From a virus: a stretch of DNA of 45,761 nucleotides. Positions 1 to 38,899 of this stretch are shown here, piece after piece. Position 1 is the first letter of the stretch, and every line of letters starts with the position of its first letter. Where the stretch lies: positions 1 to 45,761 of IMG/VR virus record IMGVR_UViG_3300021347_000006; one strand, given 5' to 3'. The notes below the pieces were generated by a model. The model saw only the letters and a list, made by a program, of their open reading frames with translations. It was not told where the DNA came from and made no database searches. Made by a program: the position numbers and the translations under genes.

Positions 1-1
1 C

Positions 2-210
2 TACCCCTCTATACTATATAAATAAATATTATTACTTAATGTATACACTATACCCTACCTAAGCCCAAAACCCTTATAAATAAAGGGATCGAGACTAGGG
101 CATGGCACAGGGTATCCACCTCTCTTACAGTACCCTACACCCTCACACCTAGCCTCAATTGTTCTCATTTCTCTAATACTTTTCCAATTTGCATACCCTA
201 CCCTACCCTG
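2..210. repeat. TACCCTA-repeat non-coding end
   Basis: No gene is visible in the first 202 bases. The stretch is AT-rich but carries six copies of TACCC, at 2, 51, 131, 194, 199 and 204. The last three are a perfect tandem, TACCCTACCCTACCCTG, at 194-210, overlapping the stop codon of the ABC/GNAT gene. On the minus strand these read GGGTA, so the 3' untranslated end of that transcript would contain closely spaced G-runs. The role is unknown; a replication or packaging site or a 3'-end structure are possibilities only. Confidence 0.5.
71..87 (-). terminator. weak hairpin, possible terminator
   Basis: On the minus strand CCCTT and AAGGG form a 5-bp stem around a 7-base AT loop, followed by TTTT. 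It lies about 115 bases after the stop of the ABC/GNAT gene and could end that operon. The stem is short, so this is a weak call. Confidence 0.3.
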
Positions 211-1357
211 TAAACAAATCAGCCTGTTTCAATTCATTCTTCTCCTTGTTCCAAACAGGGTCATAAGACTTCCTATCAGGACCAATATACTCATGCGAAT
301 AACATATTCTATCCACATCTAGCGTCATATGATGCCATTCTTTCTTTACATTCTTTCTTCTTGCTTTCTTTCTATCCACTAAATTGGTAGAAGTAGCACG
401 CCAAAGATCACTCTTTTGCCTGTATTCACCCATACGCATGTGTGCAGTCTTAGAGAAGTATCTGTACCCATCTTCGATGTGAATATCTGCTATCGCATCA
501 GAGAAGCGTACTCCTATGCCTAAGCCTTGAAAGTCAGGCAGTATGACAGTTCTACAACCACGCCATTTCTTTCTTGTATCACCCTCATATAACGGTGGTA
601 TCTTGCCCGGCAAACTTATGCTTGCACCAAAGCCCACGAGTTGCCCTTCCCACACACAACAAAAGCATCGTATAGCATTAGGTATTTCTGCCGTTAAATA
701 GTGATGTTTCGCAAACATTGACCACAAAGACTTATCGCATCGGTATACTTGAACTTGTATAGGTTGCCGAACCGACCCCCTTTTTAGCTCTTGCGTGTCA
801 GTGCAATACACCCAGTCAGGCTCAAGCCAACTAAGTATATCTTCATGACATGTAGCCAAAACGATGTTCTTTATATTGTTTCTTTTAATGTATTTAGATA
901 AAGCCACAGAGCAAGACTTAGCTGTCTCTCTGTTAACCACTGAGGTAAACTCATCTATGACGGCACCATCTTTTAATTTTCTCGCCATGTCTGCTCTAAA
1001 ACCCTCGCCATTCGATAACACATGTCTTGGCTTTGCCCACGATGGTATCGTGTTGAGTCCTACTGCACTGAGTCTTGCAATGGCATCTTCTTCACTGTCA
1101 AAGTGTGAAGCCACTGACTTGCTTCTATCCCATGTCAGTTCTTCTTCCTCACCAAACCTTTTAAGCAGAGTAGACTTGCCACTCCCACTAGAACCAAAGA
1201 TCACACCGATAGAAAACTCTCCATCTATCGATGGCATTCTTGGTACCTCGAAGCTTGTGGTGCCATCAAAGCTAAAGTCGAAGTTCTTGTAGATGCTTTG
1301 ATCTATCTCACTCATCTCCACATTCGATGTCAGTATCTCTCTCTTATCCTCTTCCAT
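203..1357 (-). CDS. ABC-type ATPase fused to GNAT acyltransferase
   Basis: This 384-aa protein has an N-terminal ABC ATPase domain: Walker A GSSGSGKST at residues 55-63, signature LSNGE at 114-118, Walker B VIDEF at 133-137 and an H-switch ATCHED at 168-173. A C-terminal GNAT domain follows, with HHYL at 218-221 and the acyl-CoA loop FQGLGIG at 276-282. This architecture matches the COG2401 type (ABC ATPase fused to a predicted acetyltransferase), whose function is not established. The stop of the upstream nuclease gene is directly followed by this ATG, with a strong GGAGG-type ribosome site, so it is the last gene of the primase operon. The HHYL motif recalls the Mom-type DNA-modifying GNATs. 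DNA or host-protein modification is my inference; tRNA modification is an alternative. Confidence 0.8.
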   Translation of the reverse strand: MEEDKREILTSNVEMSEIDQSIYKNFDFSFDGTTSFEVPRMPSIDGEFSIGVIFGSSGSGKSTLLKRFGEEEELTWDRSKSVASHFDSEEDAIARLSAVGLNTIPSWAKPRHVLSNGEGFRADMARKLKDGAVIDEFTSVVNRETAKSCSVALSKYIKRNNIKNIVLATCHEDILSWLEPDWVYCTDTQELKRGSVRQPIQVQVYRCDKSLWSMFAKHHYLTAEIPNAIRCFCCVWEGQLVGFGASISLPGKIPPLYEGDTRKKWRGCRTVILPDFQGLGIGVRFSDAIADIHIEDGYRYFSKTAHMRMGEYRQKSDLWRATSTNLVDRKKARRKNVKKEWHHMTLDVDRICYSHEYIGPDRKSYDPVWNKEKNELKQADLFTG

Positions 1358-1705
1358 CTATCCCTCCGTATGTATCCTTGTATGTAAATCTATGAAAGCT
1401 TGTGCATCCATGACCACCAAGGGCTTGCTTCTGTTTCTTTTGATCACGAGTAAAGGCTCATAGCCCTTGCAATTGGTCTCTGCTTGTTCGTATGACTTCC
1501 ACACATTCACTGCTTCTTGATTCTTGCATTCGATTGAATAGGGGAAAGCTTCTCTTGATTGTTTACCGAGTATGACATCTTCACCTTGGCTACCCATGGG
1601 TCTGCTCTCTATATCTTCTGCATCTAACTTCAGTATCTCTATGAGCTTAGTGACTACCCACTGTTGTAACTTCCTACCTTTTGCTTTTGCACTTGATGTC
1701 TTCAT
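1358..1705 (-). CDS. PD-(D/E)XK nuclease (resolvase-like)
   Basis: The 115-aa protein shows a compact PD-(D/E)XK core: GED at residues 41-43 followed by IECKN at 58-62, where E59 and K61 would be the metal and catalytic residues. The size and motif spacing suit small phage Holliday-junction resolvases or VRR-NUC-like nucleases that act on branched DNA. It overlaps the upstream 66-aa gene by 4 bases (ATGA) and sits in the primase-helicase operon, which supports a role in replication or recombination. Assignment to a specific nuclease family is uncertain. Confidence 0.65.
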   Translation of the reverse strand: MKTSSAKAKGRKLQQWVVTKLIEILKLDAEDIESRPMGSQGEDVILGKQSREAFPYSIECKNQEAVNVWKSYEQAETNCKGYEPLLVIKRNRSKPLVVMDAQAFIDLHTRIHTEG

Positions 1706-1902
1706 TTAATGTTGAGTTCCTCTTTGCCATTGCGTTTGTTGAATTCCCTGACTAACCACTTGAAGTTCGCCTTCACATACCCTGCATAGTCTCTTGTCTT
1801 GGCATGGGGTGAGCTTGTCTCATCACAATAATCGAGCCACATCCTCGAGGTGAAGCTCTTGAACTCCTGCGTAAATACATCTGTGAATGCCTCGTATCTC
1901 AT
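1702..1902 (-). CDS. hypothetical protein, 66 aa
   Basis: Not recognised. It is a small, mixed-charge protein with several aromatic residues (MWLDYCDE, FKWLVREF). It lies 70 bases downstream of the primase-helicase stop codon and overlaps the nuclease gene by 4 bases, so it should be co-transcribed and translationally coupled with it. The coupling is the main support for it being real. Confidence 0.6.
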   Translation of the reverse strand: MRYEAFTDVFTQEFKSFTSRMWLDYCDETSSPHAKTRDYAGYVKANFKWLVREFNKRNGKEELNIK

Positions 1903-1972
1903 GTGTTAAAAAAAATCGTGCGTGAAACACTCAGAGACAACGATTGATGCCCAAGGTTGCCCACTATCATCG

Positions 1973-4090
1973 CTAGAATGCAAGGGGTTCATCGGTAGTC
2001 TCTGTGGGTAAATCTATCAAGCTAACATCATACACTTTCTTACCATTGGTTTTTCTAGGCTCAATGCCAAACTCTGTTAACACTCTTGATGCATCTTTGA
2101 AGTCTATGTTTCTTGGGTTGCGTATGCCTAAAGCTCTAAGCATAGCTGTGAGTTGCCATGGCTTTTTCTCTGAATCCAGTGGCTTGAAGTCTACATGTTG
2201 CATGAGTAAGTCTTCGACTGCACCTTGGGTTCTGAATCCTTCATTCGATTCTTGTAAGAGTTCTCTCTCTTCTTTCGTTAGGTACCAGTTCTTCTCGCCT
2301 TGTTTATAAAGCGTAGCTTTGACCTCTGCCCACATTTGTTGCATGTCAATCCCATGATGCGGATTGATGTCTGTAACTTTTAAACACCAAAAGCGTCTGT
2401 TACCACTACCATCCATAAGAAATTCGGGTTCGTTAACTGATGCAAAGAATGCTGTGCGTCTTTGATAATTGGTAAAGGTTCGATCATATGGCAATCGCAT
2501 TTCATCAGACTTAGAAGTAATGAAAGCTTTGAGTTGGTTGATGTCTGCTTTCTTAAAGGTAGACTCTAACTCTCCTAGCTCTACAATCCAGTGACTGACG
2601 GCTTTCTTCACGCTGTCTTTATCTTTTGGATCAAGGGTAGCTCCTTCAAGTAACCAACCTTTGTTGAACTCAGCCAAGCGTTTGAACCAAAGCGTTTTAC
2701 CTAGCCCTTGCTTGCCTTGAAAGACCAACAATCCTTCTAGCGATACACCGTCAACCTCAAATGCGGCAGCTACACAAGATAGCAACCACTTTCTCATCAG
2801 CATGTGTTTGAGTCTGTTGTCTTCTGCTGTGACGGTATCGCAGAAATCCGTGATACGAGACACACCATCCCAAGGCTTACTATCAATCCAACGGGCAACA
2901 GGATTGTGTTCTTGGGCGATGATTTTCATCGCATCACGGACTCTTTGATGGGGTACAAAATTCTTGATGCACAAGTTTTCTAATTCAACTAAGTGTGCTT
3001 CATCTTTTAAATCTGCTATGGGTTTAAAGTTAGGTATCTCGATCTCAATGCGTTTTTTAATAACATCGTAATAACATTCAATGTCATAAGTCTTCATGAG
3101 TGCATGATAGTTATCTGTGGTAGCCATGATCCGACCTTGTGTGGTCTTCTCAAACTCTACTAGATCAGGAACATCCACCTTCTTGGTAATGATCTCACCA
3201 GTGACTGCTTTTTGATCGTTGAAGTCCATGCCTTCTTCTGTTGGCATAACTACTTCAGCATTTGATTGTTGAGCGGCTTCTATTGCTTTCTTCTCACCAA
3301 TACCATTGGCATCATTGTCTGCATAAATAATAAACTCTTTGTTTGGAATAGATTCCATAAACTTGGTATTAATAGACAACAAGTTACCTGCGTTAAAACA
3401 AACCACCATAGGAATGTTTTGATCTTCAAAGATTGTTGCACAAGTTGCGTAACCTTCACCAAATCCTATCTTCTTTGTTTCCTTGATTAAATGTGTGCCT
3501 ATTAAAAAGAAGCAACCACCTGTTCGACCACCCGAAAGAAATCGTTTTGATCCATCAGGCATGATCGTCTGCAACGACCACATCTTGCCTTTCTCATCAA
3601 TGATGGGTATCAAGAGCTTGCCATTGTGTTCTCTCAAGTTGTGTGAGCGTACATTTTTAGAATCTAAGTATGGATGTGAGTCACAGGGTTTGCCTGCATC
3701 CCAAATCATTTTGGCTTTCTTTGCGACCTTTAAATGTTTCTGTTCTTGGTCTTGTCTTGCTTGTTCTCTAAATTTCTCCAGTGCTTCATAGTTAACCTCG
3801 GAAGATTTCCGTGAAGATAATTTAAAGTTATGAGTTTGTCCCGTTCGATAATCAGAGGCAAAACCAATAGGTGTGCCAAAGTTATCATAGTAAGCATAGT
3901 AACCTGACATAGCTCTCTTGTTATTAACCACGGTATACGCTCTTTGTGGTTTTTCGGGATTAGGTTCCAGTGTTTCATTCTTAGGTTCAAATCCATGTTG
4001 TTTTAAGAACTCTGTGAACTTACCCATTGACTCCATGGTCAAGGGTTTGTCGTATTCCTTGCCTCCGCCTTTAATATTTTTGATCCCCAT
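1973..4090 (-). CDS. TOPRIM primase / VirE-type helicase
   Basis: This 705-aa replication protein combines two modules. A TOPRIM domain spans about residues 205-300, with the acidic motif GEGYA at 211-215 and YADNDAN at 256-262, as in DNA primases. A VirE/D5-like P-loop ATPase follows at about 400-620: Walker A QGKQGLGKT at 458-466, Walker-B-like VELGEL at 503-508, and the family hallmark SVNEPEFL...GNRRFW at 551-568. No N-terminal zinc finger is visible, so template recognition may differ from DnaG. A GAGAGG ribosome site precedes the ATG. As no DNA polymerase is present in the window, this protein probably primes and unwinds for the host replisome. It starts a minus-strand operon and faces the SSB-like gene divergently. 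Confidence 0.9.
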   Translation of the reverse strand: MGIKNIKGGGKEYDKPLTMESMGKFTEFLKQHGFEPKNETLEPNPEKPQRAYTVVNNKRAMSGYYAYYDNFGTPIGFASDYRTGQTHNFKLSSRKSSEVNYEALEKFREQARQDQEQKHLKVAKKAKMIWDAGKPCDSHPYLDSKNVRSHNLREHNGKLLIPIIDEKGKMWSLQTIMPDGSKRFLSGGRTGGCFFLIGTHLIKETKKIGFGEGYATCATIFEDQNIPMVVCFNAGNLLSINTKFMESIPNKEFIIYADNDANGIGEKKAIEAAQQSNAEVVMPTEEGMDFNDQKAVTGEIITKKVDVPDLVEFEKTTQGRIMATTDNYHALMKTYDIECYYDVIKKRIEIEIPNFKPIADLKDEAHLVELENLCIKNFVPHQRVRDAMKIIAQEHNPVARWIDSKPWDGVSRITDFCDTVTAEDNRLKHMLMRKWLLSCVAAAFEVDGVSLEGLLVFQGKQGLGKTLWFKRLAEFNKGWLLEGATLDPKDKDSVKKAVSHWIVELGELESTFKKADINQLKAFITSKSDEMRLPYDRTFTNYQRRTAFFASVNEPEFLMDGSGNRRFWCLKVTDINPHHGIDMQQMWAEVKATLYKQGEKNWYLTKEERELLQESNEGFRTQGAVEDLLMQHVDFKPLDSEKKPWQLTAMLRALGIRNPRNIDFKDASRVLTEFGIEPRKTNGKKVYDVSLIDLPTETTDEPLAF

Positions 4091-4114
4091 ACTTGCCCTC
4101 TCTGTGAAACTTCT

Positions 4115-4142
4115 ATATTATGTTGTGTTGAATACCTTACAA
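4115..4142 (-). promoter_or_regulatory. possible primase-operon promoter
   Basis: In the divergent gap between the primase and SSB-like genes, the minus strand reads TTGTAA, 16 bases, TAATAT. The fit to the sigma-70 consensus is moderate. The plus strand must also hold a promoter for the SSB-like gene in this 106-base gap, but I could not pick one with confidence. Confidence 0.35.
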
Positions 4143-4196
4143 TATACTTTGTTTGGAATAAATAAACAATAATTATTTTTATTGAGGAGAAAAAAT

Positions 4197-4850
4197 ATGG
4201 CTTTAACAATAAGCGATAGCGGTAGCGGTAACTTTGAGACCATTGCCAAGGGTAGATATAAAGCAACCTGTTATAGAATTGTTGACGTGGGAACACACAA
4301 CGAAACCTATGAAGGTGAAACCAAGAAGCGTCACAGTGTCTTCTTATACTGGGAACTAGATGAGAAGATGTCAGACGGCAAACCTTTCTCAATCATGAAA
4401 CAATACACACTGTCTCTTAATGAGAAGTCTGCTTTGTTTTTACACTTATGTTCATGGCGTAACAAAAAGTTTACCGATGATGAACTTAAAGGTTTTGATT
4501 TAACCAACATTCTAGGATGCACATGTGAGCTTGAAGTTGAATATACTTCGGGTGGCAATCCTAAAGTAACGGCTGTCTATCACCCTGAAGGTGGTGTTAA
4601 GAAAGTTGCAACAACCAATGAGCAAATAGCTTTTGATGTTGATGAGTATGCAAAAGACAACAAAGATATGTGCGATGTGTTTGTAAATTTACCCGAATGG
4701 GTACAAAATAAGATTGATGAATCTTTTGAAGTGGTAGCATCTAATAAAGCTGAAAGTGCTAAACTACAAAAAGACGAGTCAACAGAGTTTTCTTCTCTTG
4801 ATAACTTGGCTGATGACAAGAAATCAATCGAGGACCAAATCCCGTTTTAA
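4197..4850 (+). CDS. SSB-like single-stranded DNA-binding protein
   Basis: The 217-aa protein probably binds single-stranded DNA during replication and recombination. It has a beta-rich N-terminal region of about 130 residues consistent with an OB fold. A low-complexity acidic tail ends in EDQIPF, very like the DDDIPF tip with which bacterial SSB recruits partner proteins. I chose the ATG at 4197 over an in-frame TTG at 4182 because GAGGAG at 4184-4189 is a well-spaced ribosome site. It is followed by the RecE-like nuclease, the usual partner in phage recombination modules. No close family name is recognised; the function rests on tail and context. Confidence 0.65.
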   Translation: MALTISDSGSGNFETIAKGRYKATCYRIVDVGTHNETYEGETKKRHSVFLYWELDEKMSDGKPFSIMKQYTLSLNEKSALFLHLCSWRNKKFTDDELKGFDLTNILGCTCELEVEYTSGGNPKVTAVYHPEGGVKKVATTNEQIAFDVDEYAKDNKDMCDVFVNLPEWVQNKIDESFEVVASNKAESAKLQKDESTEFSSLDNLADDKKSIEDQIPF

Positions 4851-4856
4851 CGGTTT

Positions 4857-4920
4857 GGGCTACTAGGTCATGATATATATTTCATATTTGATTCTCCATA
4901 ACAAATAGATTTAGTAGCCC
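4857..4920 (+). promoter_or_regulatory. long-range inverted repeat before exonuclease
   Basis: GGGCTACTA (4857-4865) and TAGTAGCCC (4912-4920) are perfect 9-base inverted arms around a 46-base AT-rich loop, which itself contains a possible small stem (ATGA...TCAT). The right arm ends 12 bases before the ATG of the exonuclease and is followed by CCCTTTTATA. It could be an attenuator or weak terminator between the SSB-like and exonuclease genes, or could control ribosome access, since no clear Shine-Dalgarno site is present. Confidence 0.45.
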
Positions 4921-4932
4921 CCCTTTTATACC

Positions 4933-5751
4933 ATGGGTGATGTAATAGATTTTGAACCACGCTTCGATGTCGTGGTCTATGAAGAGGGAGTGTATGACGA
5001 CATGCCTTTCCCCGAATACAATGATCTTGGTGCTTTTAGATCGCATGATCTTTCAGCCATCATGAAAGACCCTTACAAATATAAATACGAAGAGAAGCCT
5101 GACAGCGAGGCTTCATTCTTTGTTGAGGGTAGATTGCAACATTGTTTATTTTTAGAACCTCATGTGTTTGACGATGAGTTTGTCATAGCACCTAAGGTTG
5201 ACAAAAGAACCAAGGCAGGCAAAGAAGAGTATGCAGACTTTCTTTCTTCTGTCGGTAATCGTAGCGTTGTCTCACAAGACTTGTATGACACTTGTGTAGC
5301 TCGTTGTGAGGTTCTTGATGCATTTAAACCAAGAGGCGAGGACAAGACTGAGCTATCAGTGGTCTTCGATTACTTTGGGCATTTGTGTAAAGCTCGTTTC
5401 GATATGCTACAAGACAATGTGATCATTGATCTTAAAACCTGTCGTGACGCTTCACCAAGAGGCTTTAAACATTCAGTTAAAACATTTGGCTATCATCAGC
5501 AAGCGGCTTTCTATCTTGATGCCGCTAAGAATGTAGGTCTGACTGAGGTTGATAGGTTTCAGTTTCTTGCAATAGAAAAGACTCATCCATATCCATATGT
5601 GGTTTATGAGTTAGAACCTGAAGCTGTAGAGTATGGTCGATCTCTGAATGAACAAGCACTGGACTTATTGTTGAAGTGTGAGCAAACAGGTATCTACACA
5701 CCATACAATTTACACAATCAGATTGTGCCAATTAAACTTTCGGATTTGTAA
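4933..5751 (+). CDS. RecE-like PD-(D/E)XK exonuclease
   Basis: The 272-aa protein matches the PDDEXK_1/RecE C-terminal-like exonuclease family that resects double-stranded ends for recombination. Visible motifs are GRLQHCLFLEP at 66-76 (the family's helix near the active site), E140, FDML at 156-159, the catalytic DLKT at 166-169 and the helix YHQQAAFYLDA at 187-197. Those residues correspond to E, D and (D/E)XK positions of the fold. It follows the SSB-like gene, giving an SSB-exonuclease pair; no RecT/Beta annealing protein is recognised nearby. The ATG at 4933 lacks an obvious ribosome site. Confidence 0.85.
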   Translation: MGDVIDFEPRFDVVVYEEGVYDDMPFPEYNDLGAFRSHDLSAIMKDPYKYKYEEKPDSEASFFVEGRLQHCLFLEPHVFDDEFVIAPKVDKRTKAGKEEYADFLSSVGNRSVVSQDLYDTCVARCEVLDAFKPRGEDKTELSVVFDYFGHLCKARFDMLQDNVIIDLKTCRDASPRGFKHSVKTFGYHQQAAFYLDAAKNVGLTEVDRFQFLAIEKTHPYPYVVYELEPEAVEYGRSLNEQALDLLLKCEQTGIYTPYNLHNQIVPIKLSDL

Positions 5752-6039
5752 TTGGCTAAAAGTTTACCTCGCCCCATTCACGATCACCTTTACTGGGCAG
5801 GTAAAGCTTCAGAGTTTAACACTCAAAAAGAAAGAGAGGACTTTTTACGAGAATATGGCTTTGAGGACAAACGCATTGAGACAATCACCCACCTTGCAGT
5901 GGCGTGGTTGCCTCAGCGTATGTATATGCTTTCAAACAGGTTATTAAACTTGGCATATCACGACTTACCGAATGACACAGCTAGAACCATGTTTAGAGTT
6001 GGCATTCATGCTTATAAAAAAAGAAAAGGATTATTATGA
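5752..6039 (+). CDS. hypothetical protein, 95 aa
   Basis: Not recognised. The coding frame opens with TTG immediately after the exonuclease stop codon and its end overlaps the next ATG by 4 bases, so it is embedded in the recombination operon. The protein is helical and rich in aromatic and basic residues, with no membrane segment. The TTG start is inferred from the tight junction, as no earlier in-frame codon is available and the first in-frame ATG lies over 50 codons downstream. Confidence 0.65.
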   Translation: MAKSLPRPIHDHLYWAGKASEFNTQKEREDFLREYGFEDKRIETITHLAVAWLPQRMYMLSNRLLNLAYHDLPNDTARTMFRVGIHAYKKRKGLL

Positions 6040-6560
6040 TAGTAAGATTTTCAAGACAGGATTTATCAGAATGCGAACAAGCGGCATCTTTGCGTTGGCA
6101 GTTGGCAAGAGCCAGTGGTGTTGCGAATCAAAGAAGAGATAAGTCTCGCACCGATCACGACATTGATCTTTTGGGTGTAAAGGGAGAGTTAGCTGTGGCT
6201 AGAATCTTTCAAATAGATCACGACATACACAAAGGTGGCATTGATATGAACATTGACATGTGGGACAACGATGTGTCCTTTGATGTGAAGGCTACCTTTA
6301 CTCAAGCAGGGCATTTGTTATTCAAACAAAAGAAATACTTTAAGGCTGATGTAGCCATTCTTGTAACACCCCACGACATACCTGATTCAGTTATGGTTGC
6401 AGGGTGGATAGGTAGAAAAGAGTTTTTAGAGAAAGCCCAAGATGTAGATTTTGGTAGTGGTCCTAGTGTTGCTATGGGTTATAACGATCTAAGACCTATA
6501 CCCGAACTGTGGAAGTTTATGACCATGAAAAGGGTTGCCAAAATACCCAACCGCCTTTAG
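6036..6560 (+). CDS. PD-(D/E)XK nuclease-like protein
   Basis: This 174-aa protein has the outline of a restriction-endonuclease-like fold: KGELAVARIF at 49-58, GGIDM at 67-71 and SFDVKA at 81-86, giving E51, D70, D83 and K85 as the likely active-site set. It ends the plus-strand SSB/exonuclease operon and overlaps the preceding gene by 4 bases. It could be a recombination endonuclease or a nuclease that degrades host DNA. No specific family is recognised. Its stop overlaps the convergent gene at 6557 by 4 bases. Confidence 0.6.
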   Translation: MIVRFSRQDLSECEQAASLRWQLARASGVANQRRDKSRTDHDIDLLGVKGELAVARIFQIDHDIHKGGIDMNIDMWDNDVSFDVKATFTQAGHLLFKQKKYFKADVAILVTPHDIPDSVMVAGWIGRKEFLEKAQDVDFGSGPSVAMGYNDLRPIPELWKFMTMKRVAKIPNRL

Positions 6561-6781
6561 TCTTCTGACTTAGCTGTAATAATAGCTCCGTCTACTTCAA
6601 TGCTGTTGAACTCCAGTCCACTGATCTGTTCATCATTGTGTTCAAAGATCACATCTCTAACCAATAGTCTAAGCAGTCCTGCCTTTTGAAACAGGTTAAG
6701 CCTAGCGTAAGTTTCTATCACTTCACTGGCTGTCATCTTGCTAGTGTTCAACAAGATATCGTCTTTCTTTTTAAATAACAT
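6557..6781 (-). CDS. hypothetical protein, 74 aa
   Basis: Not recognised. It is a mostly helical protein with an acidic C-terminal half and no membrane segment. A GAGAGG ribosome site lies 9 bases before the ATG, and the gene follows the 69-aa gene by 13 bases. It is the last gene of a minus-strand cluster of small early genes running from 8484. Confidence 0.6.
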   Translation of the reverse strand: MLFKKKDDILLNTSKMTASEVIETYARLNLFQKAGLLRLLVRDVIFEHNDEQISGLEFNSIEVDGAIITAKSED

Positions 6782-6794
6782 TTAGGGTCCTCTC

Positions 6795-7004
6795 TTAATA
6801 ATTTAGTTTAACATAACCCGACTTTAATACATGAGCTAATTTCTCATCGTTGTGGGTTCTTAAAAACCAACCGCCTTTTGCATCCACATATGAAGATACA
6901 ATGTCGGGCATTTCTACATTGCTCATGTTGTACATGTCTTGGTAATGACATTTGTAAGCATACAAAGCTTGCTCAAAGCTTATAGGTTTATTTGTTGGCA
7001 CCAT
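6795..7004 (-). CDS. hypothetical protein, 69 aa
   Basis: Not recognised. The protein is soluble, with the aromatic segment GGWFLRTHND near the middle. Its start overlaps the end of the preceding 44-aa frame by 17 bases, and an AAGGATGG context with upstream GAGGGGGA supplies a ribosome site. The compact packing and position in a run of small early genes support it. Confidence 0.6.
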   Translation of the reverse strand: MVPTNKPISFEQALYAYKCHYQDMYNMSNVEMPDIVSSYVDAKGGWFLRTHNDEKLAHVLKSGYVKLNY

Positions 7005-7122
7005 CCTTTTTATCCCCCTCGTTTCTTTCTCTTAATAGCTTCATAAACTCTGACCACTTGTATAGTTTTTTGGTAACCTCGTCATAAAAGTTACCCTTGT
7101 AGTCTTGTGTTATTTTAGTCAT
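6988..7122 (-). CDS. small hypothetical protein, 44 aa
   Basis: A short frame of 44 codons fills most of the gap between the 65-aa and 69-aa genes. It begins MTKITQDYKGNFYDE, ends with a highly charged KLLRERNEGDKKDG segment, and is preceded by AAGGA at 8 bases. It ends inside the next gene by 17 bases, typical of the coupled small genes here. Function unknown. Confidence 0.55.
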   Translation of the reverse strand: MTKITQDYKGNFYDEVTKKLYKWSEFMKLLRERNEGDKKDGANK

Positions 7123-7170
7123 CGTTGTTCCTTGGTAGTTGCTCTGCATCAAACCAACCGCATGGATAAT

Positions 7171-7368
7171 TTATCTCCATTCTGTGTGTGGCTTTTTGCG
7201 TTTATCAGAATATTCATATTCTACTCTATCTCGATATCTTTTGTGTCTGATCACACTGACTTTGCCCATCTCTTCTCTTTGCCATCCAAGCTCTATGATT
7301 GTGTTTGCTTCTTTCTCTTCTTTGAGCTTTTGATTTTGCTTTTCTACAACATCTTTATACTGTGTCAC
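7171..7368 (-). CDS. hypothetical protein, 65 aa, GTG start
   Basis: Not recognised. The N-terminal 25 residues are a charged helix (EKQNQKLKEEKEA) and the rest is basic. The frame starts with GTG at 7368, inside the end of the upstream 99-aa gene. An AGGAGG Shine-Dalgarno site, among the strongest in the window, lies directly upstream of this GTG, which decides the start over an ATG five codons downstream. Confidence 0.65.
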   Translation of the reverse strand: MTQYKDVVEKQNQKLKEEKEANTIIELGWQREEMGKVSVIRHKRYRDRVEYEYSDKRKKPHTEWR

Positions 7369-7654
7369 TTTCTACCTCCTCTACTTTAGGTTTATTTTTA
7401 TCTGCAATAACTTTCTTTATTGCCTCCCAAACCAATGCTTCATTGAAGTCTCTGTCCCAAGTGATCATGCCTTTTTGTATACAAGCGTTGCAACCTATGG
7501 GGTTATTGAGGAATCCTTCAAAGGTAGATGTGAACTCACCATGACCACCAAGGACACAACGCCCTGTGTATGTCTCATGGATATCCTCTCCAAGGTCCTT
7601 TCTGTATCTTGCAATCATCTGATCGTAAGTCTCTTCTCTTCTTGTTCTTGCCAT
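7355..7654 (-). CDS. hypothetical protein, 99 aa, GCNAC motif
   Basis: The protein contains CVLGGHGEF and IGCNACIQKG in its middle part, a Cys/His pattern that could bind a metal, but only about three cysteines are present and no known zinc-finger class fits. The ATG is preceded by AAGGAG. It is the first gene after a predicted promoter carrying tandem AAGTGTT boxes, and overlaps the next gene by 14 bases. Confidence 0.6.
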   Translation of the reverse strand: MARTRREETYDQMIARYRKDLGEDIHETYTGRCVLGGHGEFTSTFEGFLNNPIGCNACIQKGMITWDRDFNEALVWEAIKKVIADKNKPKVEEVESDTV

Positions 7655-7686
7655 TTTGATTCTCCTTGTTTAAATGAACAAACTTA

Positions 7687-7732
7687 AATTTACTCTCACA
7701 AGCATTGAATGTCAACACTTGTGAACACTTGT
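7687..7732 (-). promoter_or_regulatory. promoter with tandem AAGTGTT boxes
   Basis: On the minus strand there is TTGACA (7715-7710), a 17-base spacer and TAAATT (7692-7687). The -35 overlaps an AAGTGTT box. A second copy lies 10 bases upstream, so two boxes fall on one face of the helix at 7714-7720 and 7724-7730 (AACACTT on the plus strand). This would drive the 99-aa gene and the small genes beyond it. The same box sits at the -35 of three other predicted promoters. Confidence 0.6.
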
Positions 7733-8484
7733 TACGCTACCTCCTTAACTTGGCTAATAAATTTTGCTTTAGTTGGTCTTTTGAAAAAGTAGAATGTACC
7801 ATCAAAGTCTTTTGGCTTTTCTATCTTTGCATCAAACTGTATTACATCACCAATGTTAACTGGCTGATCTTTCATACTAGGAACTGAGCCAAAAACTTTT
7901 TGACCAGTCTCAAGAAGAAAGATACCTTTAAGCACACAACCCCAATCACTGTAATACTCTTTCTCATGAACAAGCTCGCCAGTGATAGTAACTCTGTTTT
8001 CTGTATCTAGTTCAGCAACATTAGCCAATTTTTGTAAGTCATCAAACTTTCTGCATGATCTAGCCATGAAGCTTGCCCAACATACAGTGGCAAAGTTTAA
8101 GTCTCTTTGTGCATTTCTCTTTGCTCTTTCAGCATCAACCTTCGCCCAAAAATCTTTCTTAGCTTGTTTTTCTGCTTTCTCTTGAGCAATTGTTTCTTTG
8201 TCTCTTTGCACAATTTCGTTAAGCTCTCTTCTGTCTGTAATTACAAGCTTAAGGTCTTTGTCGTTAAAAGAGTTGTAGTTAGCAACATAGTCTTTGGCTT
8301 TAGCCACAGCTTGATCATAGTCAGTAGACAATGTTTTAACAAAACGATCACTACGACTATAAGTAGATGCTTGATAAGGCTGAGAAACACTAGCCTCCTC
8401 AAACTTTCTCAAAGTAAAAAAATTATTACCTCTACCAGTAGAAAGGTAAAAATATTTGTTTGTAAAAACTTTAGTACCTGTCAT
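7732..8484 (-). CDS. hypothetical early protein, 250 aa
   Basis: No family is recognised. The N-terminal third is polar and aromatic, and a charged helical stretch (about residues 90-140, rich in E/K/Q/A) suggests a coiled coil. The C-terminal third has alternating beta-like segments with GDVIQFDAKIEK, which could be a small OB-like domain. I start it at 8484 (MTGTKVF), preceded by GGAG at 7 bases, rather than at 8511. It has its own predicted promoter with two AAGTGTT boxes and faces the ribbon-helix-helix-like gene divergently. Confidence 0.7.
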   Translation of the reverse strand: MTGTKVFTNKYFYLSTGRGNNFFTLRKFEEASVSQPYQASTYSRSDRFVKTLSTDYDQAVAKAKDYVANYNSFNDKDLKLVITDRRELNEIVQRDKETIAQEKAEKQAKKDFWAKVDAERAKRNAQRDLNFATVCWASFMARSCRKFDDLQKLANVAELDTENRVTITGELVHEKEYYSDWGCVLKGIFLLETGQKVFGSVPSMKDQPVNIGDVIQFDAKIEKPKDFDGTFYFFKRPTKAKFISQVKEVA

Positions 8485-8524
8485 ATCTTTTCTCCAATGT
8501 GTAAGAATCATTTCCTACACACTT

Positions 8525-8567
8525 ATAATAACAAATGAAAACATAATTACAACACTTTTCAACACTT
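8525..8567 (-). promoter_or_regulatory. promoter with tandem AAGTGTT boxes
   Basis: The minus strand reads TTGTAA (8552-8547), a 16-base spacer and TATTAT (8530-8525). AAGTGTT overlaps the -35 and a second copy lies exactly 10 bases upstream (plus-strand AACACTT at 8551-8557 and 8561-8567). The design matches the promoter before the 99-aa gene. It would drive the 250-aa gene. Confidence 0.6.
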
Positions 8568-8594
8568 TTATTGATGTTTTTTTATATGCTAATA

Positions 8595-8627
8595 AAGTGT
8601 TAATATTGTGTTCAAATGTATTATAAT
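8595..8627 (+). promoter_or_regulatory. promoter with AAGTGTT box
   Basis: On the plus strand there is AAGTGTT (8595-8601) overlapping a TTAATA -35 (8600-8605), a 16-base spacer and a perfect TATAAT -10 (8622-8627). A related TTGTGTT lies 11 bases downstream of the box, inside the spacer. It would drive the two tandem ribbon-helix-helix-like genes, allowing autoregulation. Confidence 0.6.
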
Positions 8628-8666
8628 CAGTTACAATTCAGTTTTAAGTACATAAAGGAGATTGAT

Positions 8667-8837
8667 ATGGGTGACTACAACAAGGGCTACAGAACCTTGA
8701 CAGTCGATCTAGCAACCTACGAGTTATTGCAAGAGATTTGTTCTTTAGAAAGAAGAAAGAAGATTGATCAAATCCGTTTAATGGTGGAGACCAATCACAA
8801 AAAAGTAATGCAACAGCAAGAGGGGGAAGCTGTATAA
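8667..8837 (+). CDS. ribbon-helix-helix-like protein, 56 aa
   Basis: The small protein has the order beta strand (YRTLTVDL), helix (ATYELLQEICSLE) and basic helix (IDQIRLMVETNHKK), which fits ribbon-helix-helix DNA-binding proteins of the CopG/Arc class. The start at 8667 is preceded by AAGGAG; an upstream in-frame codon at 8616 would fall within the promoter. The gene lies beside promoters with repeated AAGTGTT boxes, so a role as early-gene repressor is a reasonable inference. No toxin partner is present, so a toxin-antitoxin role looks unlikely. Confidence 0.55.
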   Translation: MGDYNKGYRTLTVDLATYELLQEICSLERRKKIDQIRLMVETNHKKVMQQQEGEAV

Positions 8838-8850
8838 CTAGGAGACAATT

Positions 8851-9090
8851 ATGTTAGCAGGACATTTTCCTAAAGATATTGTCAAACAAATAAAAGGCTC
8901 ACAAAGAGTTGAACAGGACATTACCCCTATAGCCATAGATAAGCATTTGTCTGATCAATTGTTTGCACTTGCCAGTGCGAAGAATAAATGTCCAAGAAAG
9001 ATGGCTGAGTATTTTATAAATCTAGGAGTGCAAACTTCTAAGTTTTATGGGAATACAATGAATGTTCAGTTTGATGTAGATCAGCTTTAA
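8851..9090 (+). CDS. ribbon-helix-helix-like protein, 79 aa
   Basis: The central part reads as a strand (DITPIAID) followed by two helices (KHLSDQLFALASAKN and RKMAEYFINLG), again compatible with a ribbon-helix-helix fold. It starts 13 bases after the previous gene's stop, with an AGGAGA ribosome site, so the two are co-transcribed. The C-terminal 20 residues are polar. It may form a heterodimer with, or be a diverged copy of, the previous protein. Its end converges with the late operon one base away, with no clear terminator between. Confidence 0.5.
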   Translation: MLAGHFPKDIVKQIKGSQRVEQDITPIAIDKHLSDQLFALASAKNKCPRKMAEYFINLGVQTSKFYGNTMNVQFDVDQL

Positions 9091-31390: not shown

Positions 31391-31567
31391 TTAATGTAAG
31401 ACCCTTTTCTCGTCTTCTTTGAATTGTACTAAGTCTGTTAACTCTCCTTGTACTATGTATCCATCTATTTCTGCTATGGCTTGAGCTACCTCAAAGTCTT
31501 CAGCGTGTATGTTAGGACCACAATATTCCTGACCGTCATGAATGAATTTTGTAACAAATATTTTCAT
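31391..31567 (-). CDS. small hypothetical protein, 58 aa
   Basis: A 58-codon frame lies between TerL and the portal. It begins MKIFVTKFIHDGQEYCGPNI and continues as a small mixed alpha/beta protein with an acidic C-terminal half. Its ATG overlaps the TerL stop by one base (TAATG), so it is coupled to TerL. Function unknown; compact packing supports it. Confidence 0.6.
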   Translation of the reverse strand: MKIFVTKFIHDGQEYCGPNIHAEDFEVAQAIAEIDGYIVQGELTDLVQFKEDEKRVLH

Positions 31568-33051
31568 TAGTAATAACTTAGCTTTCTTCTATCAAATGAT
31601 ACCTCATCTTCATAGTCTGTGCCTAGCTCAATTAAGCCTCCTTGTCTAATTCTCATTAACGCCATGGTAGCGGAGTCAGCAAAGTCATCGTTTTCTCCAT
31701 AAGGAAAAGAAGCCATTTCTTCAATAACTTCTTCAGCAAACGCATCTTCTGTTGCCCAAACCATGCCACTTTCAAACATGGGTGAAACAGAGTTCATTCT
31801 TGCTATTTTGTCTTGCCCTCTACTTGGTGAGTAAGATTGTACGGGTATGCCTATCTTTCTAAGTTCTTGTGTTAAAGGCGTACCACTGGCTTTTGCTTCA
31901 ATCAAAACAATATCAGGTTCCCAATATTTATATTCTTCTAAAGCTATTTTTTTCAACTCAGGAAAATCTACTCTATGTCTTGTTGCGTCCAACAATATGA
32001 CAGAAGCTTCATCGCCTTCTTCAGGATAAAATATGCCCCATGTCGTTATAGCCGAGTAGTCAGCCGTTTCTTTTGCACTAAATGCGGTGTCATAGCTTTG
32101 TATAATACACTCACACGAAGGAATCTCTTCACTCTCCCAAGTTTTCCACCATTCCCTTTTAATAATTGATCCACTTTCTGCTGTTGGATTTTGCATCCAC
32201 TGAGCATTCCATTTGGATACTGGTAAAGATGCTTTGACACCCAAGAGTTCTTCTTTCTTCCAAAACTCTGCCCACAAAGGCTCATCAGACTCAGGCATAA
32301 TTGCAGGAAACTCAACAAGCTCCCATTGGTCAGCGTGTGCTTCTGACTGTCTTTTAAGCAATCGACCTGCTAAGTCTTTGGTTGACCATCGTGTCATTAC
32401 TAAGATGATAGTACCGCCCGGCTGTAACCTTTGGCGTGGTCCTGATGTGTACCACTCCCAAGCTCCATCCATTGCAGTTGGTGACATGGCATCTTGCTCA
32501 GAATGTGGATCGTCAATGATTAATAAATCTGCACCACGACCTGTAATAGCACCACCAACTCCTGAGTAGAAAGCTTCACCGCCATCATTGGTTGTCCACC
32601 GACCTGCTGACTTGTTATCACCTGATAAACTAATATTAGGAAAAACGGTTTGATAATCTTCTGAGTCAATAATGTTTCTTACTCTACGACCAAACCTTAC
32701 AGCTAGTTCTGCGGTGTGAGTTGCTTGAATAATTTTAAGTGATGGATTTAGTCCCATCATCCATGCAGGAAAGAATGTCGATGCAAACTCTGATTTGGAA
32801 TGTCTTGGTGGTAAGCACACGATAAGTCTTTTTAGCTTGCCTTGTGCTATGCGATTAAATTTGTCTGCAAGTATCTTGTGGTGTCTGCCCATAATAAAGC
32901 CTTGCCACATCATTTGTACAAACTCTAAAAAATCATCTCTGCATTTGGTTCTCGCTTTGATGTTTTTCCATTTATCAATCAAAGCCAAGGCTTCTATCTG
33001 CTCATCCTTAGATAGAATTTCAAAAGATTTTATTTTGTCTAAATCAAGCAT
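31567..33051 (-). CDS. terL: terminase large subunit
   Basis: The 494-aa motor and nuclease packages DNA into the head. The ATPase part has a Walker-A-like PPRHSKSE at 81-88, Walker B LLIIDDP at 176-182 and the coupling motif TRW at 220-222. The RNase-H-like nuclease has D321 (SYDTAFS), E385 (LIEAKASG) and D456 (DDFADS). Motif order and length fit TerL. No small terminase is recognised nearby. The ATG at 33051 has no Shine-Dalgarno site and is preceded by a perfect hairpin (33057-33104). Confidence 0.9.
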   Translation of the reverse strand: MLDLDKIKSFEILSKDEQIEALALIDKWKNIKARTKCRDDFLEFVQMMWQGFIMGRHHKILADKFNRIAQGKLKRLIVCLPPRHSKSEFASTFFPAWMMGLNPSLKIIQATHTAELAVRFGRRVRNIIDSEDYQTVFPNISLSGDNKSAGRWTTNDGGEAFYSGVGGAITGRGADLLIIDDPHSEQDAMSPTAMDGAWEWYTSGPRQRLQPGGTIILVMTRWSTKDLAGRLLKRQSEAHADQWELVEFPAIMPESDEPLWAEFWKKEELLGVKASLPVSKWNAQWMQNPTAESGSIIKREWWKTWESEEIPSCECIIQSYDTAFSAKETADYSAITTWGIFYPEEGDEASVILLDATRHRVDFPELKKIALEEYKYWEPDIVLIEAKASGTPLTQELRKIGIPVQSYSPSRGQDKIARMNSVSPMFESGMVWATEDAFAEEVIEEMASFPYGENDDFADSATMALMRIRQGGLIELGTDYEDEVSFDRRKLSYY

Positions 33052-33514: not shown

Positions 33515-33979
33515 TTACAAATCTAAAGGTGTTAATTTTGGACTTTTGTTTGCTTGATCTAAACATGCTTGCAAAGATTCTTTAGTATCTATTTCTAAAA
33601 GCCTTTCTTCTGTTTTTGCAAACTCTGTTAAATTTTTTTCTTTATTAAATGGCATAAAAATTACTTTATCTAAAGGTAGGGCTACCAAACAAAATAAATC
33701 TATTTGACCGTTACCGTACCTTTCATCAGAATCTTGTCTTTCTTTTTTTGCCGTTCTTCTGCCACTGCGTAACTCCCAACGATAATAATCTTTGCCTCTT
33801 CTTAAATAGGTGGAGTTAGTGGTTTTTACTTGTACTCTGTATAGCTTATTTTGATGATCCAAAATTAAATCGCTTCTATGAGCTTGAGGTGCAAGAATTA
33901 CAGAGTCGCAAAATCTCAGCAAGTAAGATGCTGCCAAATATTCACCTGCTAACGCTATGCGTGTAGTGGCATGTGGCAA
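33515..33979 (-). CDS. PD-(D/E)XK endonuclease-like protein
   Basis: The 154-aa protein has AGEYLAASYLL at about 11-21, HRSDLIL at 34-40 and the catalytic YRVQVKTT at 47-54, giving E13, D37, Q50 and K52 as likely active-site residues. This layout matches the PF11645-like small endonucleases. It lies between lysozyme and DUF6378 in the late region, so it may help digest host DNA or resolve DNA during packaging. Confidence 0.7.
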   Translation of the reverse strand: MPHATTRIALAGEYLAASYLLRFCDSVILAPQAHRSDLILDHQNKLYRVQVKTTNSTYLRRGKDYYRWELRSGRRTAKKERQDSDERYGNGQIDLFCLVALPLDKVIFMPFNKEKNLTEFAKTEERLLEIDTKESLQACLDQANKSPKLTPLDL

Positions 33980-35135: not shown

Positions 35136-36245
35136 CTATGAACTTTGTTTAATGGTTATAACTGAATCTCCGCCACCATTAATTTTTATAGTATTAGAAA
35201 CACCGTTTTGTATAAAAATAACAGTATATCCTTGACTAGAGTTTAAATCTACTTGTACTGACTGTTCAACCTTTCTTCTTAAACTTATTAAATCTCCAGT
35301 AACCAAAGTGACTATTTGAGTTTCTGTATCTTGACCAACTTTAGTGCCAATAATTCTTGTTATTGTTTGATCTTGTTTAAGATCGTCTTCTTGTAGTTTA
35401 TCTAATTCGTTTACTATTTTTAACATATCTTCAAAAAAATTAACATCTAAAAAGTTAATATCTAGCTCTGTAAATTCTAAATCATCTTCTGCTAAGTAAT
35501 CTTGTTCTAACTCGTCAAACTCTAAAAAATCTACATCCAGTACATTGCTACTTTGATCTGTAACCTCTTCATTTGCGGTTTTATTTTCTTGTGGATTGGT
35601 AACAATTAACATGTTATCAATAAGGTCAAGAGTTAAATCTAAAATGACTGGCTTGCTTGGAGGAGATTCAAAAACCGTGGTAACGGTAGATTGATAGGGT
35701 TTATTTAAGATTACAGTACCCATAGCGGTCATGACCTCTATTTCACCGCTTGCTGTACCATCTTTATTGGGCAACAGAATTATTAATGACTCACCAATCT
35801 CATTGGTTGTGATAGTAAAATCTGTGCCTCTGATGCCTACAGTTGCACTGTTAGTTCTAATTGTTATGTTTTTTTTAGCAACCTTGTTTAATTTACCAGT
35901 AACAAACCTAGCAGTGCCTTTGGCAAAATTAAGTGCCATTTTAGATTTGTTTGGGTCAGGGTCAAAAACAAACTCATCAATTAATACTTGTGAGTGTTCA
36001 GTAAGGCGTATAAGAGTGTCATCAAGAAAAGTAACAGCCATGCGACCATTAGAGGTCTCAAGGGTGTCGTATGATCTTATGTCATCATTTAATTCTGCTG
36101 TTTCTGTTTTGTCTCGTACAATACGGGCAACACCGTTTAGTTCTGATATTTCTCCTACATCAACATGAGGTGCTTGTTCCGCCATCGTTTTGAATGACGC
36201 AAACAGTACCACTGTTACCGTTAGAAATAATGCGGAGCCAGTCAC
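35136..36245 (-). CDS. secreted FecR-domain protein
   Basis: The 369-aa protein has a signal peptide (about residues 1-23, hydrophobic SALFLTVTVVLFASF) and a FecR domain at about 30-170 with the diagnostic TVGIRGTDF at 135-143. An acidic region follows (about 225-295, rich in LDVDFLEFDELE), then a beta C-terminus. The GTG start at 36245 lies 86 bases inside the curlin-like gene. I keep it because the overlapped part encodes the signal peptide. FecR domains usually sense or scaffold at the envelope; here the partner is likely the curli system next door, not a sigma factor, as no anti-sigma part is present. Confidence 0.7.
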   Translation of the reverse strand: MTGSALFLTVTVVLFASFKTMAEQAPHVDVGEISELNGVARIVRDKTETAELNDDIRSYDTLETSNGRMAVTFLDDTLIRLTEHSQVLIDEFVFDPDPNKSKMALNFAKGTARFVTGKLNKVAKKNITIRTNSATVGIRGTDFTITTNEIGESLIILLPNKDGTASGEIEVMTAMGTVILNKPYQSTVTTVFESPPSKPVILDLTLDLIDNMLIVTNPQENKTANEEVTDQSSNVLDVDFLEFDELEQDYLAEDDLEFTELDINFLDVNFFEDMLKIVNELDKLQEDDLKQDQTITRIIGTKVGQDTETQIVTLVTGDLISLRRKVEQSVQVDLNSSQGYTVIFIQNGVSNTIKINGGGDSVITIKQSS

Positions 36246-36858
36246 TTGCTAATTCACTTTGTTGATCAATGTTAAATGTTCTTGAGTTGCCGTCATGCTC
36301 AAGTTTAAAATATCCTCCACTCTTACCATCAGCATCAAAATTAACTGTATTGCTATCTCCATCGACATCAACATAGTTGGTTGCCAAATCATAATCTATA
36401 TCAAAATCAAAAGTATTGCTATCTCCTTGCACTATCCAGTCTAAATCTAAAGTGCTAGCAAGATCATTGGTTGCAACATCTAAGGTAAAAGTATTGCTAC
36501 CTCCTGTTACATCTACATTAAAGTTACCACTATTTGCACCATAAGTATTTGTGGGGTCGACTTGTATATTAAAGGTATTGCTATCGCCATCAAATTCAAA
36601 AAAACCTGTAAAAGTGCTTGCGGTTATATCTCCAAGAAATTTGTTACTATCACCTATTTGATTGATGTCCAAAGTCATTGTTCCGCCATCAAGATCAAGT
36701 GCAGTCATGGAACCTGCTGAAGCTGTAGCACCCCCTATAATATTAGATGAGCCAAGTTGTTCTATATCAAGGTTGAAGGTAGCTCCGACCTGATCCACAT
36801 ACACCTCGTTGTCTGCATACACAGAACCTATTAAAAACAATGCTAATAATTTTTTCAT
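36160..36858 (-). CDS. secreted curlin-like repeat protein
   Basis: The 232-aa protein has a signal peptide (MKKLLALFLIGSVYA) and about eight repeats of some 20-25 residues. Their core, D-G-D-S-N-T-F-N-I, resembles the Q-x-G-x-x-N beta-turn repeats of CsgA/CsgB curlin (for example DQVGATFNLDIEQLGSSN, LDINQIGDSN). It is rich in Asn, Asp, Gly and Thr and would form a beta-solenoid or amyloid-like fibre once exported through CsgG. The ATG at 36858 overlaps the CsgG stop by 4 bases. Only the first repeats keep the classic Gln-Gly pair, so the assignment is by pattern and context. Confidence 0.65.
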   Translation of the reverse strand: MKKLLALFLIGSVYADNEVYVDQVGATFNLDIEQLGSSNIIGGATASAGSMTALDLDGGTMTLDINQIGDSNKFLGDITASTFTGFFEFDGDSNTFNIQVDPTNTYGANSGNFNVDVTGGSNTFTLDVATNDLASTLDLDWIVQGDSNTFDFDIDYDLATNYVDVDGDSNTVNFDADGKSGGYFKLEHDGNSRTFNIDQQSELASDWLRIISNGNSGTVCVIQNDGGTSTSC

Positions 36859-37652
36859 TTTATGTTCCAATAATTTAATACAACTCCTTGCTTTATGGTT
36901 TCCAAAACTGCGGTTTCTATTGCGTTTTGTAAGGCAATATTTATAGATTCGTTTTCGGTGATGCCGTTTTCTATTTCAATTAACTCTGTGTTATCAGAGA
37001 TAAATCGAAAGGCATCTTGATTTAGCGAAACGCTAAGTATGGTTTTGGTAACCAATACTTCTGTTAAAACTTTGCCCGTACTAACAGAAACAGTTCTTAG
37101 TGAAACCGTTACTGTATCTTGTCGGTACTCTTTTGTGGTGCCAATACCTAAATATCTTGCACCAAGACCACCTGACTTTAGATTACTTTCATATCCTATC
37201 ACACCACCCTCCATAAGCAATCCTGCGAAGGCTAAAGGTAACAAATCTTTTTTTTCATCAAAGTCTTTTCTTGTTGATCTAATAAGCTGTCTTTCTTTGG
37301 TTAAATTATCTAAACCAACTCTTTCTACCACATCAAAAAAATTACCTTTACCTGCGTGTTTTAAAGCTCTAATTAAATATGCATAAGGTGCTTGGGTTAC
37401 TGCTGTGCTAAAGGTTGCAAACGAACTGTTGCTTCTTCGTTGTCCTGTATGATCAATAAAGCTTGTGGGGTAAACGGCAACAATAAGTTTTACAAAAGGC
37501 ACCCCTGTATTAGCCAAGTCTTGATTTATTAGTTGCCCAACCTCTGATTGTTTGACGCTAGTAAAGGGTATGGCGTAATTGTCTAGGGTGCTACAGCTAG
37601 AAAGAAAAATCCCCAATAGGCAAAGTAATTTCTGTCGTGTTTCCATCTGCAT
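36855..37652 (-). CDS. csgG: CsgG-type curli secretion lipoprotein
   Basis: The 265-aa protein is a strong match to CsgG, the nonameric outer-membrane pore of curli (type VIII) secretion. A lipobox LSSC puts the lipid cysteine at residue 20. Residues 78-85 (FATFSTAV) match the region of the pore constriction helix. The core reads EGGVIGYESNLKSGGLGARY then LGIG (148-171), and VSTGKVLTEVLVTKTILS follows at 190-207, nearly identical in pattern to E. coli CsgG. It overlaps the end of csgF by 56 bases. The start may also be at 37646. The pore lies next to CsgF and the curlin-like protein, as in host curli operons. Confidence 0.92.
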   Translation of the reverse strand: MQMETRQKLLCLLGIFLSSCSTLDNYAIPFTSVKQSEVGQLINQDLANTGVPFVKLIVAVYPTSFIDHTGQRRSNSSFATFSTAVTQAPYAYLIRALKHAGKGNFFDVVERVGLDNLTKERQLIRSTRKDFDEKKDLLPLAFAGLLMEGGVIGYESNLKSGGLGARYLGIGTTKEYRQDTVTVSLRTVSVSTGKVLTEVLVTKTILSVSLNQDAFRFISDNTELIEIENGITENESINIALQNAIETAVLETIKQGVVLNYWNIK

Positions 37653-38070
37653 CTGTTATGTTTAAAGTTATGTATTCACCATCGGTTGAATACTCTATTG
37701 TATTACCTTCTAGTTCAAGTGTGCCTGAAGTATTAGCAGTTTCGCCAAATAAATTATCCACAAGTTGTCTACTAAGCTGTGCATAAATTCTGCTTTCTAA
37801 ATTTCTTATAAATCTAGCTAGTGTTGTATTGTTGGCTTCTCTTTCTAGGTCCTCCTGATAAGCTTTTATTTCAGCTTTAATGGCTTCTTTTCTGCTTGTT
37901 TCTTGATTCTCTATTGTTAAATAATGAGCAGAAGTGCCTATACCTGAAAAGCTTGGGCTTTTAAATTTATGCACCATCTCATCACCATGAGCAAACATAG
38001 AAATAATAATCGTTATTATCAATCCAATAATTCCAAATATAAACATCCAATCAGTCTTTTCTTTGATCAT
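37597..38070 (-). CDS. csgF: CsgF-type curli assembly protein
   Basis: The 157-aa protein has an N-terminal hydrophobic signal (FIFGIIGLIITIIISMFAHG). The conserved mature start MVHKFKSPSFSG follows, equivalent to E. coli CsgF MTFQFRNPNFGG, the segment that plugs into the CsgG pore. The C-terminal part has FIRNLESRIYAQLSRQ, the beta segment NTIEYSTDGEYITLNITDAD, then GNTTEITLP, matching the CsgF C-domain. In E. coli CsgF caps CsgG and anchors the curlin nucleator. Gene order csgF-csgG-curlin is a minimal curli export set. Confidence 0.88.
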   Translation of the reverse strand: MIKEKTDWMFIFGIIGLIITIIISMFAHGDEMVHKFKSPSFSGIGTSAHYLTIENQETSRKEAIKAEIKAYQEDLEREANNTTLARFIRNLESRIYAQLSRQLVDNLFGETANTSGTLELEGNTIEYSTDGEYITLNITDADGNTTEITLPIGDFSF

Positions 38071-38876: not shown

Positions 38877-38899
38877 CCCCTCTTTATGAGGGGTTTTTT
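38877..38899 (+). terminator. rho-independent terminator
   Basis: CCCCTC-TTTAT-GAGGGG followed by TTTTTT on the plus strand, directly after the 109-aa gene. The loop carries the stop codon of the convergent nuclease gene. The minus strand has no U-run after the hairpin, so it acts on the plus strand only. Confidence 0.85.

Follow-up and report, generated by a model that had tools for sequence, protein, structure and literature searches.

The closest described system is the family of ABC-coupled GNAT proteins, for which Iyer et al. predicted the acyl modification of a DNA base, naming Tenacibaculum phage pT24 (PMC7824862, with earlier work referenced in it). The family corresponds to PHROG 11143 ('unknown function') and its genes bear the label 'MK0520 / ABC-type ATPase fused to acetyltransferase', while the label in phage Cyrano points to COG2401; a literature search returned no match for COG2401 and no experimental test, biochemistry or mass spectrometry of any family member. 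A second system to be compared is Mom of phage Mu (PF25680), which has a GNAT fold and whose gene is located beyond the tail-fibre genes; the Com protein of Mu binds a hairpin whose loop contains CC(N)2-3GAG (PMC6483171). The ParB-domain DNA adenine methyltransferases of phages (PHROG 498) transfer methyl instead of acyl groups and have no ABC or GNAT domain. Lastly, TmcA, the tRNA(Met) cytidine acetyltransferase, joins a GNAT domain to an ATPase domain that belongs to another class, the helicase type.

The window, a viral stretch of 45,761 nucleotides, encodes a member of the ABC-coupled GNAT family within the following operon, which is listed together with the terminase gene of the same contig:

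1973..4090, minus strand: Toprim/VapE-type DNA primase-helicase, head of the operon (Pfam VapE-like PF05272, E 9.5e-54; Toprim_3, E 3.7e-9)
1702..1902, minus strand: 66-aa ORF, in the place of a Mom-family gene in the sister contig L008
1358..1705, minus strand: PD-(D/E)XK endonuclease, PDDEXK_15/RusA-like, 115 aa (Pfam E 4e-6; PHROG 244, E 1.6e-20)
203..1357, minus strand: ABC-ATPase/GNAT fusion protein (ABC-GNAT) of the PHROG 11143 family, 384 aa, ATG start
31567-33051: large terminase gene

The gene order (VapE/Toprim primase, 66-aa ORF, PDDEXK_15/RusA-like nuclease and, directly downstream of the latter, ABC-GNAT) confirms the first-pass annotation, which had placed the gene behind a primase and a nuclease, and the 384-aa minus-strand ORF with its canonical GNAT domain equally confirms the fusion of the two domains in one chain. 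Residues 11-362 of the protein align with PHROG 11143 (E 4.6e-107), and pT24 encodes a homologue (tblastn E 1e-53, 37.6% identity) that was located independently of the protein accession given in the paper; the homology extends over both domains, which stand in the same order, and assigns the protein to the ABC-coupled GNAT family. Because the prediction of Iyer et al. names pT24 and pT24 carries this homologue, both the family and its DNA-modification prediction are already known. The window protein differs from several members in being a single chain, whereas the domains are separate ORFs in pT24, Lactococcus P335, Streptococcus MismyG and Enterococcus 9184. Separate, mostly overlapping ORFs are seen for the ABC and GNAT halves in L082, L084, L089, L094 and L096, indicating that the family exists in a fused and in a two-gene form. 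Pfam finds only weak pieces in the 384-aa protein (Acetyltransf_1, just under the cut-off, and P-loop families), and NCBIfam likewise only weak ABC/P-loop and GNAT pieces.

That the gene is beyond chance follows from the recovery of a relative at 80/80 fetched IMG/VR loci (80 of the 191 found) and from a dN/dS of 0.12-0.19 between the window gene and three close relatives, indicative of purifying selection. Window positions 1-9000 have no nucleotide-level relatives among sequenced phages. Carriers occur among the phages and prophages of bacteria from many phyla, with hosts that include Aeromonas, Pseudomonas, Streptococcus, Porphyromonas, Gordonia, Leptospira and Planctomycetota. A window-type ABC-GNAT with 58% identity is also present in a MAG contig labelled Euryarchaeota (L183), possibly a mis-binned phage contig.

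The preferred reading, held at a probability of roughly 80% and drawn from context, is that the protein is an ATP-dependent acyltransferase that would modify the phage's own DNA on a base and thereby evade host restriction; we infer DNA as the substrate, and likewise which base is modified, what donates the acyl group and that the purpose is restriction evasion. Base modification or protection from restriction had been suggested at first on the grounds of operon position and one motif; it remains the best-supported reading and now has a far stronger context (Mom slot, Com, ParB), although the idea itself was already present in PMC7824862.

The ABC part contains the features below, with conservation calculated on an alignment of 67 family members reduced to <65% identity:

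770..1336, minus strand: ABC-ATPase domain, ~residues 8-196 (Foldseek against PDB: ABC nucleotide-binding domains, best E 3.6e-7)
1172..1195, minus strand: Walker A GSSGSGKS, residues 55-62 (G55, S57, G58, G60 and K61 at 100%)
1001..1018, minus strand: ABC signature LSNGEG, residues 114-119 (S115 and G117 100%, L114 97%)
947..961, minus strand: Walker B VIDEF with the catalytic Glu136, residues 133-137 (D135 and E136 100%)
929..943, minus strand: D-loop SVVNR, residues 139-143 (from the alignment; Asn142 in the window where the family has Asp)
839..850, minus strand: H-loop CHED, residues 170-173 (H171 and D173 100%)
812..829, minus strand: WLEPDW, a family-specific motif closing the ABC domain, residues 177-182 (W177 and W182 100%, P180 99%)

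Walker A, the signature, the Walker B Glu and the H-loop are all present in the window protein and 97-100% conserved, with S115, G117 and R121 of the signature among the residues in this range, as expected of the ABC ATPase superfamily. The initial statement that all ABC signatures are intact holds for these four motifs and is to be qualified for two others: no conserved Gln of a Q-loop was found in the 67 members at residues 62-114, the stretch that separates Walker A from the signature, and position 142 of the D-loop, an Asp in 91% of the family, is occupied by Asn in the window protein. The family-wide form of the closing motif is WLxPDW. Judging from the ABC motifs, two such domains may pair up upon binding ATP, close on the DNA as a clamp or scan it, and make a base accessible.

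The GNAT part is organised as follows:

278..760, minus strand: GNAT acyltransferase domain, ~residues 200-360 (Acetyltransf_1 E 6.6e-4; RimI by hhalign; GNAT matches by Foldseek)
695..706, minus strand: HHYL motif, residues 218-221 (H219 99%, Y220 100%, L221 99%)
512..553, minus strand: acyl-CoA pyrophosphate loop RTVILPDFQGLGIG, residues 269-282 (R269, P274 and G278 100%)

The (R/Q)xxGxG/A loop of the GNAT superfamily is found as QGLGIG, alongside GNAT fold matches, and R269, P274 and Q277-G278-x-G280 are kept at 97-100% in the 67 members, with the family consensus R-x-V-x-L-P-D-x-Q-G-x-G-x-G; the earlier view of an intact acyl-CoA loop is thus borne out. Through its QGxGxG loop the GNAT domain would take acyl-CoA and use it to acylate or aminoacylate the base at an exocyclic amine; the invariant HHY motif is putatively placed at the acceptor side.

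The HHYL motif had also been described as resembling Mom-type GNATs, and this stands for a limited region. It is aligned by hhalign with the HYS region of Mom, and the comparison of the GNAT profile with the Mom profile reaches a score of 27.6 (probability 10.7%) across the 39 columns that surround HHY/HYS, a value attained by 0/100 column-shuffled Mom profiles (maximum score 21.8). Beyond this stretch the likeness is lost, as only the HHY part is common to the lists of conserved residues, while the ELxR, SFAD and G..Y blocks of Mom are missing, and the Pfam scan gives no match to Mom (PF25680) in the window protein. On these profiles the HY-region resemblance is real, yet the protein is not a Mom, and membership in the Mom family is rejected. 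The ABC-GNAT proteins further differ from Mom in having the canonical QGxGxG loop and the ABC ATPase, both absent from Mom. Since the GNAT profile as a whole is not Mom-like, chemistry similar to that of Mom is not to be assumed.

The same profile scores 36.4 (probability 77%) against E. coli RimI, over a stretch of 66 columns. As RimI is a protein acetyltransferase, this part is nearer to a protein-modifying enzyme than to Mom (77% vs 10.7%), and for many phage GNATs a role in modifying host proteins has been predicted (PMC7824862), so that acetylation of a host protein for takeover, either RNA polymerase, as by phiKMV Rac, or a restriction enzyme, may be envisaged. Such a role is quite improbable: the RimI match covers just those 66 columns, the loop is common to GNATs generally, the fused ABC ATPase and the constant DNA-modification neighbours are left unexplained, and Com-type control in the mom slot of related phages (see below) would imply late expression rather than early takeover.

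The AlphaFold2 model of the window protein (mean pLDDT 81, pTM 0.50) retrieves ABC nucleotide-binding domains, TmcA and GNATs among its Foldseek matches in PDB, while the top match in BFVD is the homologue of Leptospira LE4 (E 3.8e-29), with a phage Mom at rank 26. The PDB matches that span both domains include TmcA (2zpa) and its relative in 5jpq, consistent with a TmcA-like RNA acetyltransferase that would act on tRNA or on phage or host RNA, aiding phage translation or blocking tRNA-cutting defences; phages Jace, Pmp13 and MismyG moreover have tRNA genes in the vicinity of the locus. This alternative is nonetheless unlikely, given that the structural match to TmcA has a TM <0.3 and an rmsd of ~15 A, that the annotations of most other phages examined show no tRNA gene close to the locus, and that it accounts neither for the replacement of mom under Com control nor for the ParB domain shared with adenine methyltransferases. 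Kinship with TmcA is not supported by the profiles, which in hhalign yield no significant match for either the GNAT part (score 20.5, probability 1.0%) or the ABC part (5.8%).

The preferred reading, acylation of phage DNA, finds its sharpest context in Mu-like phages. Porphyromonas phages phage008a and phage012a share tail genes (88% and 81% identical) and the right end (82%), and the stretch between these flanks holds small ORFs, ABC-GNAT and a formyltransferase in one phage and Mom in the other. In Pseudomonas phage Komp_PAO1_1, ABC-GNAT follows the gene for tail-fibre assembly, close to where Mu has mom. A Com-type zinc-finger ORF, absent from the deposited annotation, is present upstream of ABC-GNAT in this phage (L090 ~5469-5650), and it is like the one that precedes Mom in JD024. 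In the best 80 of 359 Mu-like ABC-GNAT contigs, an upstream Com-type ORF occurs in 70/80, vs 34/80 Mom contigs, and the PHROG family of Mu Com is detected in 6/7 tested ABC-GNAT contigs and 7/10 Mom contigs. Both operon types contain, after the Com zinc finger, two tandem hairpins with CC(N)2-3GAG, and their stem length exceeds that of all 500/500 partner swaps in all four sets, pointing to covarying pairing in a stretch that also codes the Com tail, among related sequences and with the motif copy of longest stem picked. Operon slot, Com regulator and hairpins are thus the same for Mom and ABC-GNAT in these phages, and the mom-slot placement strongly supports the DNA-modification prediction. 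Among 55 Mu-like contigs, possibly incomplete, Mom was found in 0/29 ABC-GNAT contigs and ABC-GNAT in 0/26 Mom contigs, in searches of which neither contained a positive genome, although the Mom search does detect a known carrier. Mom and ABC-GNAT can coexist outside Mu-like phages, as Aeromonas phage PX29 (L083 / NC_023688) carries both genes.

In 36 of the same 80 Mu-like contigs a formyltransferase directly follows ABC-GNAT, many of the others ending too early, and these formyltransferases keep the HPSLLP block and the downstream Asp; the enzyme may cap the added group. A gene of Gordonia phage Axumite annotated as a tRNA-methyltransferase (L093 1805-2452) matches Formyl_trans_N and PHROG 9240. 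By analogy, and tentatively, Mu-like phages may perform an ATP-driven, non-Mom hypermodification, in which an amino-acyl group (e.g. glycyl) would be placed on a base amine and then formylated by the PurN-like enzyme. The order of acylation and formylation is speculative and leans on the known PurN reaction, in which PurN relatives formylate a glycinamide amine, and one may speculate that the two steps would shift the mass by ~+57 and then +28 Da.

Other lineages add different partners. A ParB-like gene lies directly upstream of ABC-GNAT in Gordonia Jace and Axumite, Pasteurella Pmp13, Leptospira LE4, Streptococcus MismyG, Lactococcus P335 and Escherichia Cyrano and in 63/80 genomic loci, mostly of Planctomycetota and Nonomuraea; counted over the phage loci, an upstream ParB-like partner is present in 10/16 (mini-protein-only matches included). 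Many of these genomic loci have terminase-like genes downstream of ABC-GNAT and hence are probably prophages, and the planctomycete copies are rejected, as a main reading, as chromosomal defence genes. The ParB-like domain also forms the N-terminus of phage DNA adenine methyltransferases, with identities of up to 61%, so that the module found beside ABC-GNAT is the one of PHROG 498, and in Microbacterium phage Appa a ParB gene directly precedes Mom. In Mu-like phages the start of ABC-GNAT is overlapped by a ~50-aa mini-protein (80 short matches in 80 loci) homologous to the C-terminal tail of the ParB-like partner; a ParB in Mu-like loci is accordingly rejected, as the separate 50-aa protein matches that tail only. 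The ParB-like protein and the mini-protein may assist the modification.

The neighbourhood of ParB and terminase genes also admits a packaging or segregation factor, in which the ABC ATPase would work with the ParB-like protein by the terminase and the GNAT domain would be regulatory. Planctomycete and actinobacterial prophages often show the succession ParB-like gene, ABC-GNAT, small gene and terminase, and in the close relatives of the window the gene after ABC-GNAT, before which the window stops, resembles a small terminase subunit as judged by eye. This role is highly improbable, because Mu-like phages and Nonlabens P12024S have the gene at a distance from the terminase and because the same ParB domain occurs on phage adenine methyltransferases, a sharing that makes the position near the terminase fit DNA modification before packaging as well. 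The location of ABC-GNAT just before terminase genes in the relatives of the window and in many prophages would then reflect the last step of the DNA-acylation reading, in which the modified genome is packaged.

The window itself contains no Mom, ParB-like, Com or formyltransferase gene, which rules it out as a ParB-type or Com-type operon and sets its lineage apart from family members that have ParB and formyltransferase partners. Mom does appear in this lineage, as surveyed in the 80 fetched IMG/VR relatives of 191 found. Its stop codon overlaps the start of ABC-GNAT in the same operon in L021 (Pfam Mom PF25680, E 1.4e-33), L024 and L026; it is one gene upstream in the same operon in L008 (E 3.7e-34) and a few genes off in the same direction in L066 (E 1.1e-28). 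As the Mom genes of L021, L024 and L026 are near-identical, the contigs just listed amount to about three independent cases in all. L008 is 92.6% identical to the window in DNA over the ABC-GNAT and nuclease genes, and the homology breaks at window 1697-1725, where Mom is found in L008 vs the 66-aa ORF in the window. In L054-L056, a Dam-type, D12-class adenine methyltransferase is encoded upstream.

The replacement in the mom slot, the kept Com regulator and the Com-type hairpins turn a guess from sequence into a sharp claim that is testable in cultured phages. If it is true, phage DNA would receive, besides momylation, a second acyl chemistry, linked to ATP, with a bearing on restriction evasion and on the reading of modified phage genomes.

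Other genes of the window, all on the minus strand, include a second PD-(D/E)XK nuclease near the large terminase gene (33515-33979; PDDEXK_5, E 1.7e-8) and a Staphylococcal-nuclease-type SNase (38884-39315; Pfam E 1.5e-15). Curli secretion genes are present as well, with CsgG (36855-37652; Pfam E 1.7e-44) adjoining CsgF (37597-38070; E 2.9e-18), and a FecR-domain protein (35136-36245; Pfam E 2.1e-11) is encoded beside them.
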